64,000 nt of DNA from Sphingomonas sp. HDW15A (GTDB taxonomy: Bacteria > Pseudomonadota > Alphaproteobacteria > Sphingomonadales > Sphingomonadaceae), in contig NZ_CP049870.1 in the NCBI RefSeq assembly GCF_011301715.1, positions 1,116,001 through 1,180,000 of the forward strand, in the 5' to 3' direction. Numbering within the stretch: position 1 is the stretch's first letter; every line of letters begins with the position of its first letter. The notes beneath the pieces were generated by a model that did no database searches, was not told the origin of the DNA, and saw only the letters and a program-made list of their open reading frames with translations. Positions 35,215 to 56,464 of this stretch are shown piece after piece. The position numbers and the translations under genes are program-made.

Positions 35215-35385
35215 CACGAAAGGGACCGCGCGAAATTGCCGGACTGCCCCACGCCCCATTGCTGACTCCGGCAACAGAAACGGACGACAGCCTTGGGGAA
35301 GTATCTGGCTCGTCGCCATGAGGACGACTGACAGTTGCGGGCACAGCGCCGGAGTTTCACCGGCTTCCTTGCACCCAAGGCTCGC
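35215..35385 (-). promoter_or_regulatory. Cobalamin riboswitch controlling the btu operon
   Basis: The minus strand contains the conserved adenosylcobalamin aptamer core GCCGGTGAAACTCCGGC (about 35345-35361) followed by GCTGTGCCCGCAACTGT, and upstream GCCTTGGGTGCAAGGAA; a diverged B12-box-like GCCGGAGTCAGC lies near 35263-35274. It ends about 25 bases before the btuB start, so binding probably masks translation or transcription when B12 is plentiful. Exact ends are estimates. Confidence 0.9.
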
Positions 35386-35389
35386 GTAT

Positions 35390-35419
35390 CGGCTAGGAGG
35401 GGACCCCAAACCTTGTCAA
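35390..35419 (-). promoter_or_regulatory. Predicted btu operon promoter
   Basis: Minus strand TTGACA (35419-35414), 18-base spacer, TAGCCG (35395-35390). Transcription would start near 35383, just before the riboswitch. Its -35 box occupies the same bases as the rpmE -35 box on the other strand. Confidence 0.5.
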
Positions 35420-35441
35420 GCGAATGCCCTTCCGCTAGGGG
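35413..35441 (+). promoter_or_regulatory. Predicted rpmE promoter
   Basis: TTGTCA (35413-35418), 17-base spacer, TAGGGG (35436-35441) in GCTAGGGGCGCG, the same -10 context as rpsB. Start near 35448 gives a 48-base leader. Confidence 0.55.
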
Positions 35442-50289: not shown

Positions 50290-51045
50290 ATGGCTATTGA
50301 GCGGCTCGCTGACATCATGCGCCGTCTGCGCGATCCGGCTACCGGTTGTGAATGGGATCGCGCTCAGACCTTCGATACGATCACGCCTTATACGATTGAG
50401 GAAGCCTACGAGGTCGCTGACGCAATCGAGCGCCGCGATATGGACGAACTGGCGGACGAACTGGGCGACCTGCAGCTTCAGGTCGTTTTCCATGCCCAGA
50501 TGGCGGCGGAAGCCGGTCATTTCACGCTCAACGACGTCATTACGCGCATCTGCGACAAGCTCGAACGGCGCCATCCGCATATTTTCGGCGATGCACCGGA
50601 GGGCGGCCATCACCTGTGGGAGCAGATCAAGGCTGAGGAACGGGCCTCCAAAACGGACACGAGCGCCTTGGCGGGCGTCGCCCTCGCCCTTCCCGCCTTG
50701 GAGCGAGCGGAAAAGCTCCAGCGGCGTGCCGCACGCACCGGGTTCGACTGGCCAGACCACCTCGGTGCGCGTGAGAAAGTGGAAGAAGAACTCGCCGAAC
50801 TCGACCGTGAACACGATCCACATCGTCGCGAAGAGGAGCTTGGCGACCTTCTTTTCGCGGTGGTGAATCTGGCCCGTAAACTCGGCGTTGCCCCCGAAAA
50901 TGCTCTTCGCAAAGCCAACAAAAAGTTTGAGCGGCGCTTTCGTTCGATTGAGGCCCAGCCCGGCTTCAATGCCCTTAGCCTCGATGAGAAAGAGGCATTG
51001 TGGGCTGCTGAAAAGCTGCGCGAAGCCACCGATCAGAGGGCCTGA
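50290..51045 (+). CDS. mazG: Nucleoside triphosphate pyrophosphohydrolase MazG
   Basis: Hydrolyses NTPs to NMP and diphosphate. The 251 residues form two MazG domains: DPATGCEWDRAQTFDTITPY then EEAYEVADAIERRDMDELADELGDLQLQVVFHAQMA (E-x2-E...E-x2-D metal motif), and a second repeat EKVEEELAELDRE..REEELGDLLFAVVNLARKLG. ATG 50290 is preferred over an in-frame ATG at 50245 that falls in the AT-rich region. The 3' end overlaps hflX by 13 bases, convergent. Confidence 0.94.
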   Translation: MAIERLADIMRRLRDPATGCEWDRAQTFDTITPYTIEEAYEVADAIERRDMDELADELGDLQLQVVFHAQMAAEAGHFTLNDVITRICDKLERRHPHIFGDAPEGGHHLWEQIKAEERASKTDTSALAGVALALPALERAEKLQRRAARTGFDWPDHLGAREKVEEELAELDREHDPHRREEELGDLLFAVVNLARKLGVAPENALRKANKKFERRFRSIEAQPGFNALSLDEKEALWAAEKLREATDQRA

Positions 51046-52298
51046 AATTTCTCCCAGTCGGCCTGAGCCAGCCGGACGTCCATCTCGACCATGTCCGCGT
51101 CCAGACGCTGCTCGACGACGTCCCCGTGGGCGTGAAGCCAAGCGATACGCTCGCCATTATCTGCCGGCAAACGAACGGAATGCAGTTCCGCGCCGCGATG
51201 AAGGCGTTTGGCAACCGTTTCCCGGAGGACGTCCACCCCCTCGCCGGACAGGGCCGAAAGTAAGACGACGTCCTCTCGTCGCGCCGCTTCTCCTTTGACA
51301 GCAGCAAGACTATCCGGATCGAGCGCATCGATCTTGTTCCATACTTCGAGAATCGGCGGGCCTTCGCCTTCTTCCAACCCGAGCGACTGCAGGACTGACT
51401 GCACGTCGGCCGCCTGGGCTTCACTGTCGGGATGCGCGATGTCGCGAACATGGAGTATGAGGTCGGCGCCGGTCACTTCCTCCAGCGTCGCCCGGAAAGC
51501 CGCAATCAGTTCCGTTGGAAGGTCGGAGACGAACCCCACCGTATCGCTGAGGATCGCCTTGGAATGCCCTGGCAGGCGGATTTCACGCATTGTGGGGTCC
51601 AACGTGGCGAACAGCAGGTCTTCCGCCATGACGTTCGCCCGAGTCATCCGATTGAAAAGCGTCGACTTTCCGGCATTCGTGTAGCCGACAAGTGCGATTA
51701 CAGGCCATGGCGCGCGCTGGCGGCGCTCGCGGTGAAGGCCGCGCGTTCGCCGTACGTCCTCAAGTTCGCGCCGGATCTTGGCCATCCGATTGCGGATCAG
51801 CCGGCGGTCAGCCTCAATCTGGGTTTCGCCGGGGCCGCCGAGAAAGCCGAATCCGCCGCGCTGGCGTTCAAGGTGAGTCCAACTGCGAACCAGCCGTCCG
51901 GCCTGGTAATCGAGGTGTGCCAGTTCGACTTGCAACCTCCCTTCCGCGGTTGCGGCGCGCTCACCGAAGATCTCCAGGATCAGGCCGGTTCGGTCGATAA
52001 CCTTCGCTTTTGTAAGCTCTTCAAGCGTCTTCTGCTGAACGGGTGTCAAGGCCGCGTCGACCACCAGCAACCCGGCTTCGTGATCTTTGAGCATTCCGGC
52101 GACCTGCTCCGCCTGTCCCGGACCGATCAGACTGGCAGGCCTTGGCGCCCGAACCTTCAAGGCCTGGCGCGCGACGACATCAATGCCGATCGCTCCAGCA
52201 AGGCCTTCGGCTTCATCAAGGCGGGCCTCGGTAGAGCGCATCGATGCATTGCCGGCGATGTCGGGAAGAAGAATGACCGCGCGCTCGCCTCTGCTCAC
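51033..52298 (-). CDS. hflX: GTPase HflX
   Basis: Ribosome-associated GTPase. The 421-residue product contains the HflX N-terminal domain (TGLILEIFGERAATAEGRLQ), the coiled link with GGPGETQIEADRRLIRNR and the G domain with ALVGYTNAGKSTLFNRMT, DTVGFVSDLPT and NKID. The start used is GTG 52298; the in-frame stretch just upstream ([10 protein letters not shown]) resembles the N-terminus of relatives, so translation may begin slightly earlier at a non-standard codon. It is 29 bases downstream of hfq, the normal neighbour. Confidence 0.95.
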   Translation of the reverse strand: MSRGERAVILLPDIAGNASMRSTEARLDEAEGLAGAIGIDVVARQALKVRAPRPASLIGPGQAEQVAGMLKDHEAGLLVVDAALTPVQQKTLEELTKAKVIDRTGLILEIFGERAATAEGRLQVELAHLDYQAGRLVRSWTHLERQRGGFGFLGGPGETQIEADRRLIRNRMAKIRRELEDVRRTRGLHRERRQRAPWPVIALVGYTNAGKSTLFNRMTRANVMAEDLLFATLDPTMREIRLPGHSKAILSDTVGFVSDLPTELIAAFRATLEEVTGADLILHVRDIAHPDSEAQAADVQSVLQSLGLEEGEGPPILEVWNKIDALDPDSLAAVKGEAARREDVVLLSALSGEGVDVLRETVAKRLHRGAELHSVRLPADNGERIAWLHAHGDVVEQRLDADMVEMDVRLAQADWEKFQAL

Positions 52299-52327: not shown

Positions 52328-52813
52328 TCAGTGACTGTCCCCTTCCGGCTCTCCGCCAAGGTCGAGCGCCGACGCGGGCTGGAGAGTGGAGATGGCGTGC
52401 TTGTAGACGAGCTGCGAATGCCCGCCGCGTTCTAGAAGGATAACGAAGGCATCAAAGCCGGCGATCGATCCTTGCAGCATCACGCCGTTTACAAGGAACA
52501 TCGTCATGGGTTCCAATTGTCTTTGCGCTGCGCCCAGAAACATGTCCTGAAGGCCGGTCTTGTCCGAGCTCGGGTTGCGACCTTCACTGAGTTCGCCAGG
52601 CGAGGATTGCGGCTGGATCGTCGAGATAGCGTGCTTGTAGATGAGCTGCGGCGCGCCTTCGCGGCGCAGAAGAACCGAGAATGCGTCGAACCAGGTGATG
52701 ACGCCTTGCAGCTTTACGCCCTTCACAAGGAAGATCGTGACCGGTGTCTTCGATCGCCTCAACGCATTGAGGAACTGATCCTGTAGGCCGGGCGTGCCGG
52801 CGGCGTTCTTCAT
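52328..52813 (-). CDS. hfq: Tandem two-domain Hfq RNA chaperone
   Basis: Hfq is normally 70-100 residues and forms a hexamer; this chain of 161 residues has two complete Hfq/Sm folds. Domain 1 (about 10-68) starts [20 protein letters not shown] and ends [10 protein letters not shown]; domain 2 (about 88-146) starts [20 protein letters not shown] and ends [10 protein letters not shown], with an 18-residue Ser/Glu-rich linker. Both keep the proximal-face YKH (59-61, 137-139) and Gln-Asp. The rim arginine pair is present in domain 1 (R19-R20) but reduced to Q97-R98 in domain 2, and distal-face Tyr25 (E. coli numbering) is Phe in both. A trimer would mimic the hexamer with alternating rims. It lies in its usual place between ntrX and hflX. 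Confidence 0.95.
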
Positions 52814-54192
52814 TCCTCGATATCGCGTCGATCAGCCAGCCCGAGCGCTTTCAATTTCCGGTGAAGCGCGGAGCGTTCCATGCCGATAAAAGTGGCTGTG
52901 CGCGAAATGTTACCGGAGAAACGCCGGATCTGGATACGGAGATACTCGCGCTCGAAGCTCTCGCGCGCCTCGCGCAACGGCGAGCCCATGATTGCCATCG
53001 ATGCGGCGCCGAGGCCGCTATTGCCTTCCGAATCGACAATTTCGCTGGGCAAGAGGTCGATATCGATCCGTTCGACGCGGTCACCGGGCGCAAGAATCAA
53101 AGTTCGCTCGATGATATTGCGAAGCTGACGCACGTTCCCAGGCCAGTCATGGGCCTGAAGCGCGGCCAGCGCTTCTTCGGTGATCGTCGGAGGGGCGATC
53201 CTTCGCTCCGCAGAAAAGCGCGCGAGGAAATGGGCGACGAGATCGGGGATGTCCTCGCGGCGTTCCTTGAGCGACGGAATACGAACGGGCACCACATTAA
53301 GCCGGTAGTAAAGGTCCTCGCGGAACCGGCCGGCCGCAATCTCCTCTGACAGCTCGCGTGAAGTCGCGCTGAGCACTCGCACATCGACCTTGACAGGCCG
53401 CTGGCCTCCGACGCGGCTGTAGCTCTGGTCGGTCAGCACGCGAAGGATTTTCGCTTGCGTGGTCAGCGGCATATCAGCGATTTCGTCAATGAAGAGCGTC
53501 CCACCATGGGCCTGCTCGAGCAGGCCTGGCCGGGCGACGCCATCGTCCTCCGCCCCGAACAGCTCTTCTTCCATCCTGTCGGGGCTCATCATCGCCGCCG
53601 AAACCGTAATGAATGGGGCTGAGGCTCGTGGGCTCCACTGGTGGATCATGCGCGCGGCAATCTCCTTGCCGACGCCTGCCGGACCAGTAATCAATACCCG
53701 GCTTCCGGTCGGCGCAACGCGCTTAAGGGTGGCCCGGACATTGTTGATTGCCACCGATGAGCCGTCGAGTTGGTCGTCCGGGCCGATCTTCGCACGAAAT
53801 GCCGCATTTTCCCGCCTCAGGCGATCGGTCTCGGTCGCCCGGCCCACCAGGTGCAGGAGTTTACCGGCCTCGAAGGGCTTTTCGATGAAATCGACGGCGC
53901 CTTCGCGAATAGCCGCCACGGCCGTATCCAGATTGCCGTGTCCGGAAATCATGATGACGGGCAGCGTCGAGTCACGGCGTTTGACCTGTTCGAGTACCTG
54001 CAGCCCGTCCTGCCGGGAGCCCTGCAGCCAAACGTCTAGCAGCACTAGCGAGGGTCGGCGATCCTCGATGGCTTCAAGCGCGGAATCGCTGTCGGCCGCC
54101 GTCCGGACCGAATAGCCCTCGTCTTCCAGGACACCGGCCACCAGCTCGCGAATGTCAGCTTCATCGTCGACGACCAGAACGTCAAGCGCCAT
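52810..54192 (-). CDS. ntrX: Response regulator NtrX lacking the GAFTGA loop
   Basis: Partner regulator of the NtrY kinase. Receiver domain at residues 1-125 with phospho-acceptor D53 (LVLLDVWL); AAA+ domain with [18 protein letters not shown] and [15 protein letters not shown]-terminal Fis-type helix-turn-helix ([20 protein letters not shown]). Where sigma-54 activators carry ELFG-x3-GAFTGA, this protein reads [19 protein letters not shown] near residue 209, so the sigma-54 contact loop is missing and it probably acts as an ordinary DNA-binding regulator. ATG 54192 overlaps the ntrY TGA (TGATG); an adjacent TTG gives one extra residue. Its stop overlaps hfq. Confidence 0.93.
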
Positions 54193-56464
54193 CAAAGCGG
54201 TCCTTCTTCGTCATATTCCCCATCGTCAGCGAGCGGAGTCGATGGCTCGCCGGGCACCTCCTCGGCAAGCGATTCCAGCCGGTCGGCATCGAATGCAATT
54301 CGGACGTGCGTGCCGCCCCCGTTCCTGTCGAGAAAGGCAATCTCGCCCAAATGTTCCTCGACGATCTTCTTTACGATCGCCAGCCCCAGGCCGGTCCCAC
54401 GTACGCGCGTGGTCATGTAGGGCTCGGTCAGCCGCTCGCGTTCCTGCGGAAGCCCGACGCCCGTATCGGTGACATCGATAATGACCTGATCGTTTTCCCG
54501 CCGGACCTTGAGGTCGACCCGGTCACCCTCGAAGTTGGTCTCGCCGCGATTGCGCCTGGCCTCGATCGCTTCGACGGCATTCTTGACGACGTTCGTGAGG
54601 GCCTGGCTGAGCTGCCGCCGGTCGCAAACCATGGCGATCTTGCCACTCGGCGGCTCGATCGAGAACCCGATTCCCGGATGCGCGACTTCGTGAAGGAAGA
54701 GTGCCGCTCGAGCGATTTCATGCACGTTTTCATGCCGGAAAACAGGTTTCGGCATTCTGGCAAAGTTGCTGAACTCGTCGACCATCCGCCTGAGGTCGCC
54801 GACCTGCCGCACGATCGTGCCGGTCAGGCGTTCGAACGTGTCGCGGTCCGATTGCACCTCGTTGCCATAGCGGCGCTGGAGTCGCTCGGCCGCGAGCTGA
54901 ATAGGCGTGAGCGGGTTCTTGATCTCGTGCGCGATGCGCCGGGCAATGTCGGACCAGGCCGCACGACGCTGGTCGCTCAGCTGATCGGTGATGTCGTCGA
55001 ACGTCAGCACCGATCCGTCGGCGTAGCGGACACGCTTGACCGCCAACGTGCGCTGCCCGCCTTCTGCGGCAGCAACCACCACGTTCGCATCGCGCGCTTC
55101 GCCGCTCATGAATTCCGCAAGTTCACTTGTAACGTCCTCTAGCGAATGGCCTTCGATCTCTTCGCCTTCCGGCTTCAACAGATTCTGCGCCGAGCGATTG
55201 ACGAGGAGAATCCGGCCGGATTCGTCAAGCGCGATGACCCCGGCAGTCACGCTGGATAGCACCGCCTCGATGAAGGCGCGGCGCGTATCTAGCTGCTCAT
55301 TGGCAGCGACCAGCGCGCCGGTCTGCTCCTGGAGCCGACCGGTCATGCGGTTGAAGGCAGACGCAAGTACGCCAATCTCGTCATTCGGTTCGTGGACGGG
55401 AACTCGAACGGAAAAATCCCCTTCTTCAACTCGGCCCACGGCCCGACCAACTCGCCAACCGGCCGGACCAGGCGGTCCGCGATTTTGAGCGCGAAAAAGA
55501 TGGCTAGCCCGACGATCAGCAGGGCGCCAATCAGAAGCGCCCCATTGAAGCGCAGCTGGTAAAGCCGGGAGCGCGCGATGAGCTCGCGATAATCCGCAAG
55601 CAGGCTGCTTCCACCGGATATTTGCTTTGCGAATTCCGGATCAAAGACCCGGCTGGCATAAAGGTAAGCGCCCGGACCGTAGTCCAGGCGCGTGAGCGCC
55701 CCGATCCGGTCGTTGCTATTGACCGGCACGCTTTCCCGATTGCCGAGAGCTGCGATTGTCTTCGGGGTAATGACCTCATTGAGCGCGCGATCGTAAGGAT
55801 TGACCAGCGCAAGCGACTGGATTGTTCCGTCAGGCCCTACGGTGAAAATAATCGCTTCCGACAGGTTTCGCTGCAGTACCTGGGTCGCGAATCCTTGAGC
55901 GAACACGGGGTTCTCAATCGAAACCTCTTTGAGGTAACCGGCCACGTCCCCGCTCATCGTGGTCGTTTCGGCTGAGACGCGGTCCACCTCGCGGTCATAA
56001 GCTCCGCGGACCAAGGCAACGGAATTTTCGACAAGTCCCTTGGCGCGGTCAGAAAACCAGAATTCTAACCCGGACTGAAATAGAAGTGACGCGAATATCG
56101 CCACCATAACGGTTGGGACTGCAGCAACGACAGAAAATAGCGCGACCAGCCGGGTGTGCAGTCGTCCGCCGGCTAGTCCCCTCTCCTCCGCACGGGCCAT
56201 GGCTAGGCGCCGGGAGAGCAGAACCATGAGCGCGATTGCGGGTATGAGGATCGAGACGAGAAGAAGTGCGATCAGCGGCGGCGAGAGGAAGCTCTGGGGG
56301 TCGTCGCCGCCGATAAGAACGGTGACACTGAGTGCGAGCATCCCGACCAGCAGGGCGGCCATCGCAGCGGTCGCGACCTTGTAAATGCGGCCGCTCGCCC
56401 TTTCCCGAGCAAGCCAATTAAGCCCCTTTTGGCTCAACGATGACTCGGTCGCGACAGCATCCAT
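54192..56464 (-). CDS. ntrY: Sensor histidine kinase NtrY, with one apparent 1-base deletion
   Basis: Membrane histidine kinase. N-terminal membrane segments (about residues 28-100), a periplasmic sensor region, a further segment, HAMP, PAS (VTAGVIALDESGRILLVN), the HisKA box RRIAHEIKNPLTPIQLAAER and an ATPase domain with GTGLGLAIVKKIVEEH. The frame breaks inside the HAMP domain after RLVRPVGELVG; one added base at the CCC 55442-55444 (a G on the coding strand) gives GAVGRVEEGDFSVRVPV and a 757-residue protein. Directly upstream is dusB; the ntrB and ntrC genes that usually lie between are absent. Confidence 0.93.

Follow-up and report, generated by a model that had tools for sequence, protein, structure and literature searches.

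The hfq gene of Sphingomonas sp. HDW15A encodes a chain with two complete Hfq domains whose surfaces differ at defined positions, and the same asymmetry is found across the tandem Hfq proteins of its family. The gene lies in the window analyzed here, a stretch of 64,000 nucleotides of contig NZ_CP049870.1 (positions 1,116,001 to 1,180,000), in which coordinates are counted from the first letter. An earlier interpretation, made from the sequence alone (the sequence-only reading), had described two Hfq domains with unequal surfaces; this observation is confirmed, and its overall interpretation is partly supported: the two domains, their unequal surfaces, and the spread of the trait through a clade are borne out, while the three-chain ring and the altered annealing that it proposed are still predictions. 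The whole set of results is probably best explained by a pseudo-hexamer of three chains with three rim patches, in which acidic C-terminal tips cover neighboring basic rims.

The two-domain architecture itself is not new, as it was previously published and is modelled in NCBIfam. Two Sm-like domains were described in the Hfq of Zymomonas mobilis and of six other Sphingomonadales species (Yang et al., 2010; PMC2877685, cited here, like the other articles given by PMC number, from excerpts of the text), where the question of whether the ring consists of three chains was also posed; the tandem Hfq of sphingomonads mentioned by the sequence-only reading is thus already in print. Like the Hfq of Zymomonas mobilis (ZMO0347) and its counterparts in other Sphingomonadales, the window protein has two Sm-like domains per chain and comes from this bacterial order, and we infer that the hfq gene of Sphingopyxis granuli is tandem as well. 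A tandem Hfq in Novosphingobium was reportedly mentioned in a 2002 survey. What appears new here, within the literature searched, is the family-wide, position-specific asymmetry and the association of tails with rims: among the papers listed by literature searches that covered few subscription journals, we found no account of unequal surfaces in tandem Hfq, nor of the fixed differences between domains 1 and 2 or the tip-rim pattern.

Two Hfq domains with fixed differences

The open reading frame, for which the sequence-only reading gave no strand, lies on the minus strand, starts with ATG, and is free of internal stops, and this single hfq gene is the only one found in the genome (2.34 Mb, one contig). 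Two stretches of the protein match the Pfam Hfq profile (PF17209, 182 bits in total), and residues 7-159 match positions 20-174 of the 176-position two-domain model NF010691 with 220.6 bits, below its cut-off of 270 bits, which three other genomes of the family pass. The AlphaFold2 model, for which 44 tandem proteins were aligned (the window protein and 43 of the 80 titled loci described below), has a mean pLDDT of 86.5 and a pTM of 0.82, the linker and both ends being of low confidence. It contains the fold twice over, with a helix at 10-21 and five strands within 24-68, and a helix at 88-98 and five strands within 102-146. The Sm fold of the Hfq profiles (PF17209, TIGR02383), an N-terminal helix plus five strands, is thus present twice by model and by profile, as the sequence-only reading had proposed for residues 10-68 and 88-146. 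All 50 solved structures listed as matches align with domain 1, the best of them being the Hfq of Caulobacter crescentus (6gwk).

Neither a stop nor a start codon lies between the domains. The sole start-like codon in residues 66-94 encodes M91, which was considered as an internal start for a separate domain-2 product. Such a product appears unlikely, since M91 lies within the domain-2 helix and Met occupies this position in 3/160 domain-2 rows, all three being the window itself (L001, L002, and L113) and none a relative.

Both domains contain the YKHAIST (Sm2) motif and, in the numbering of Escherichia coli Hfq used hereafter for sites, the proximal pocket Q8/F42/Y55/K56/H57 and the distal pocket residues (aromatic 25, G29, Q33, Q52, and T61); domain 2 of the window protein keeps the proximal Q89, K138, and H139 (chain numbering). 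The domains differ in the basic rim patch 16/17/19, which reads R/R/K in domain 1 and Q/R/L, with one of three residues basic, in domain 2, the third position (E. coli R19), which the sequence-only reading did not mention, being K22 vs L100. Translation and alignment bear out the contrast, drawn by the sequence-only reading, between R19-R20 (E. coli R16-R17) and Q97-R98, together with the G94-A95-A96 helix of domain 2. Its contrast at E. coli K31 also holds, with Lys (K34) in domain 1 and Met (M112) in domain 2; K31 belongs to the distal face and not to the rim. The rim asymmetry it emphasized is correct but incomplete: a Lys28/Met31 exchange on the distal face and the conversion of the domain-1 tail into a near-neutral linker also distinguish the two halves. 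At site 28, the domain-1 residue of the window protein is Lys (chain residue K31), whereas single-domain relatives carry Asn28.

Aligning both domains with single-domain Hfq and with other sphingomonad loci shows the asymmetry to be family-wide. Leaving out two copies of the window (L001 and L002) and L194 reduced 160 tandem rows to 157, corresponding to 145 distinct chains: 134 ordinary chains and 11 from a divergent subclade (L183-L193), which comprises fast-evolving tandem proteins of the same genus with short linkers. In L194, from a two-contig genome of 86% completeness, domain 1 is split across two frames, possibly by a sequencing error. In L195, an unrelated N-terminus opens domain 1 and the helix with the rim residues is missing; the rim counts (133 + 11 chains) therefore exclude this unalignable chain, which is scored as having no basic residue in the tally of 145 chains.

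Among the 134 ordinary chains, only sites 28, 31, and 63 reach 90% fixation or more in both domains while carrying different residues in the two. Site 28 is Lys in domain 1 and Asn in domain 2, and site 31 is Lys in domain 1 and Met in domain 2 (all 100%), while site 63 is Met in 95% of domain 1s and Gln in 99% of domain 2s. Single-domain relatives have Asn28, Lys31, and Met63 in 34/34 distinct sequences. In 40 control singles, one from each of 40 other alphaproteobacterial families in the upper part of the class-wide match list, residue 28 is Asn in 38, Ser in one, and Cys in one, never Lys; Lys31 is present in 40/40, hence Met31 in none. From this state of the single-domain proteins, sequence comparison indicates a gain of Lys28 in domain 1 and a loss of Lys31 in domain 2. 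All three rim positions are basic in the domain 1 of 133/133 alignable ordinary chains, whereas among the domain-2 rims of the 145 distinct chains, 1 has all three residues basic, 48 have two, 83 have one, and 13 have none.

A single origin within the Sphingomonadaceae

The order-level sample comprised 296 genomes, 213 from the family of the window (Sphingomonadaceae in the wide sense of GTDB, in which Sphingomonas, Erythrobacter, and other named loci interleave on the trees) and 83 from seven other families. In the profile search, two Hfq matches were found in 202/213 genomes of the family and one in 11/213, in agreement with the suggestion of the sequence-only reading that the duplication is a clade trait. 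In the other seven families there was one match in 76/83, none in 6/83, and in 1/83 (G001) a second match, which was rejected as a tandem because it is a 38-position partial on a separate contig. From the 202 two-match genomes, 28 outside the genus of the window were fetched, and both domains are in one frame in 28/28; within the genus, 58/61 genomes matched, of which 50 were examined. Both domains are also in one frame in 80/80 titled loci (Sphingomonas, Sphingobium, Sphingopyxis, Novosphingobium, Erythrobacter, Qipengyuania, and others), which were the 80 most similar to a tandem query among 577 and so give no measure of tandem frequency.

The HflX tree was built from 114 of 196 rows, genome G262 being present twice; in it, one branch parts 72 tandem loci from 42 singles with a support of 93, which is below the tool's star mark of 95. 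Single-domain loci of the family adjoin the tandem clade, with the exception of L143, which groups with a long outgroup branch and whose place is unsure. In the domain tree (207 rows and 62 columns, from a subsample of tandem loci and all singles), domain 2 forms one clade (99) and domain 1 one set (96) interrupted only by E. coli Hfq. Therefore, the single tandem clade and the grouping of each domain show, at the level of these reconstructions, that an ancestor shared by most of the family underwent one tandem duplication in frame, followed by co-inheritance. The window gene belongs to this descent, being placed in the tandem clade with ntrX upstream and hflX downstream.

Two other histories were considered and rejected. 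Reversion from tandem to single is at odds with the 11 one-domain genomes of the family, which keep Asn28/Lys31 and branch outside the tandem clade; judging from their sequences, the single-domain hfq genes of the family look ancestral. As for a tandem Hfq that arose separately in another part of the class, 289 genomes were searched with the tandem model; among the matches listed, which stop short of all 237 matching genomes so that weaker cases may lie beyond them, 4 genomes, all of this family, match it over its length, and the next best reaches 147 bits over the first half only.

Tails, rims, and the proposed ring

The linker sits where single-domain Hfq has its C-terminal tail. In ordinary chains it is 17-25 residues long, with a mean net charge of -0.13 and a value of -3 or lower in 3/134, vs a mean of -5.7 and a value of -3 or lower in 133/134 for the domain-2 tail. 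In C. crescentus Hfq, the acidic tip of one subunit packs against the basic rim of the next (PMC6561178), and it has been suggested that a basic patch requires a co-evolving protective tail (PMC5606850). Tail lengths vary, from 38 residues in E. coli to 15 in C. crescentus (PMC6561178). The C. crescentus protein shares the fold, a domain-1-type rim, and a short acidic tail with the window Hfq; in contrast, having one domain per chain, it carries identical rims and tails on every subunit. E. coli Hfq, whose R16/R17/R19, Q8, K56, H57, Q33, and Q52 have identical or like counterparts in window domain 1, also differs from the tandem protein in its one domain per chain and longer tail.

In the ring proposed here, three tandem chains would close into one ring with domains 1 and 2 alternating. 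The proximal face of all six subunits would bind uridine tails and the distal face A-rich RNA, the Lys28/Met31 exchange shifting the distal lysines onto the domain-1 subunits, and the Arg/Lys patch that promotes pairing between small RNA and mRNA would be present only on the three domain-1 subunits. If, as these precedents and the pattern found here suggest, each acidic tip covers the rim of the neighboring subunit, the tip of domain 1 would lie against domain 2 and that of domain 2 against domain 1, as every domain in an alternating ring has the other domain for neighbor, irrespective of the direction in which the tail points; the lost tip of domain 1 then pairs with the decayed rim of domain 2, and the kept tip of domain 2 with the kept rim of domain 1. 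Through the fusion, a near-neutral linker would have replaced the acidic tip of domain 1, leaving the domain-2 rim without its inhibitor and prone to decay, while the domain-2 tip stayed acidic and the domain-1 rim basic, so that autoinhibition by the tail would persist for domain 1 only. The outcome would be a ring with three regulated annealing sites, not six.

Of three correlations uncorrected for descent, two fit this idea, that between tail charge and the domain-1 rim (-0.36) and that between the acid count of the linker and the basic count of domain 2 (0.29). The divergent subclade, one group on the tree of NtrX and HflX (support 99), has also lost the acidic tail (at most 5 residues, net charge -1 to +2), and the full domain-1 rim is kept in 4/11 of its chains vs 133/133 ordinary ones. 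Two origins of this subclade, suggested by its split on the HflX-only tree, were rejected as NtrX and HflX together join it.

Several observations weigh against the tip-rim account of the alternating ring. Across ordinary chains, linker net charge is not correlated with the net charge of the domain-2 rim (Spearman -0.05, p 0.54), so that the account rests mainly on the fixed contrast and one clade, whose tail loss is one evolutionary event and not 11. The domain-2 rims of that clade have a mean charge of +1.2 vs -0.14 in the others, that is, they are less acidic. Its chains have changed at many sites, having lost Q33 (11/11), R47 (11/11), and Met31 (8/11) in domain 2 and replaced Lys31 by Arg (11/11), Trp38 by Gly (11/11), and His57 by Gln (5/11) in domain 1, which makes general relaxation an alternative account; Lys28 stays in 11/11. 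In addition, the 48/145 domain 2s noted above retain two of three basic rim residues, domain 2 exceeds domain 1 in basic rim residues in 2/145 chains (L187 and L195) and equals it in 4/145, and the HflX branch falls short of its mark.

Plain relaxed constraint is the strongest competitor, although we consider it unlikely: domain 2 would be a structural filler completing the ring, whose rim drifted without any involvement of the acidic tail. Its faster evolution (mean pairwise identity 69% vs 83% for domain 1), the missing link between linker and rim charge in the main group, and the many decayed domain-2 sites of the divergent subclade are in line with it. However, domain 2 keeps Asn28, Met31, Q8, Q33, Q52, Y55, K56, H57, and T61 in 134/134 ordinary chains, a mere filler is not expected to fix a new Met31 and Gln63, and the acidic tail is kept in 133/134. 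Position 41 of domain 2 is Leu in 92/134 of these chains.

The Lys28/Met31 exchange could instead be a negative-design code that admits only unlike neighbors and serves assembly, not RNA binding. Sites 28 and 31 are two of the three fixed-different sites, the sole pair at 100%, and changed in opposite domains. Nevertheless, in simulations of Pseudomonas Hfq the distal ARN motif is contacted by the backbone of residues 28, 29, and 31 (PMC8121710), making an RNA role at least as likely, and the divergent subclade loses Met31 in most chains while retaining Lys28 in all; we therefore judge such a code improbable. Least probable of all are two homotypic rings, a domain-1 hexamer for pairing tied to a domain-2 hexamer holding RNA (six chains, 12 domains), which the linkers might span if stacked and which would suit the complete fold that each domain keeps in the model, but acidic domain-2 tails would then adjoin mostly lost rims and basic domain-1 rims would have no tail, and the pTM value suggests a definite two-domain arrangement, even if the model gave no inter-domain geometry.

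In the preferred alternating ring, half of the rims may suffice for some activity. In E. coli, R16A nearly abolishes captured RNA-RNA chimeras yet partly keeps regulation, and K31A, which affects regulation only mildly, reduces chimeras to 28% of the wild-type level (PMC12262471). By analogy with these partial effects, a half-rim ring may be slower or more selective and still active, which fits published work in which Sphingopyxis shows regulation that depends on Hfq and an hfq mutant of Zymomonas has a stress phenotype. A broader proposition, which we advance only tentatively, is that in Hfq neither the rim patch nor the acidic tip persists without the other as its obligate partner, so that the tip consumed by fusion cost its rim and left pairing and holding subunits alternating, with Lys28/Met31 setting the distal roles and presenting a three-fold symmetry to RNA. 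Eukaryotic Sm/Lsm hetero-rings likewise divide roles among non-identical subunits; there, seven separate proteins form the ring, whereas tandem Hfq has two fused paralogous domains in probably three chains.

Gene neighborhood and significance

The hfq gene and its neighbors are listed below.

Table 1. The tandem hfq gene, its parts, and flanking genes in the window
Feature	Position	Strand	Basis
hfq, tandem Hfq, 161 aa, two domains in one frame	52328..52813	minus	open reading frame, Pfam/NCBIfam profiles, AlphaFold2
Domain 1, residues 10-68; rim R19/R20/K22, distal K31/K34 (E. coli 28/31)	52610..52786	minus	alignment, model
Linker, residues 69-87, net charge -1; located where single-domain Hfq has its acidic C-terminal tail	52553..52609	minus	
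Domain 2, residues 88-146; rim Q97/R98/L100, distal N109/M112 (E. coli 28/31)	52376..52552	minus	alignment, model
Free C-terminal tail, residues 147-161, net charge -4	52331..52375	minus	charge count
ntrX, upstream of hfq; stop overlaps hfq start by 4 bases	52810..54195	minus	NF051870, 754.5 bits
hflX, 29 bases downstream of hfq	51033..52298	minus	TIGR03156, 448.2 bits

Among tandem loci, ntrX is missing from the flank only at L028, a contig end. At the single-domain loci L144, L146, L151, L162, and L083-L112 except L099, hflX stands beside hfq and no ntrX was detected in the flank that was fetched. In the window, ntrY is split into overlapping frames near its HAMP region (54192-55439 and 55343-56464, minus strand); the two pieces match in one frame in 30/30 relatives shown, and the split is either a real frameshift or a sequencing error. 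A cobalamin riboswitch aptamer is located at 35279-35425 on the minus strand (48.5 bits).

A normal Hfq ring has six identical subunits, so that a point mutant alters all six and hides how many rims and tails are needed. A chain with one rim-active and one rim-poor subunit makes each position separately testable, a natural experiment on the ring, and the tandem Hfq family as a whole allows the published proposal of co-evolution between a basic rim and a protective acidic tail to be tested on evolutionary grounds.
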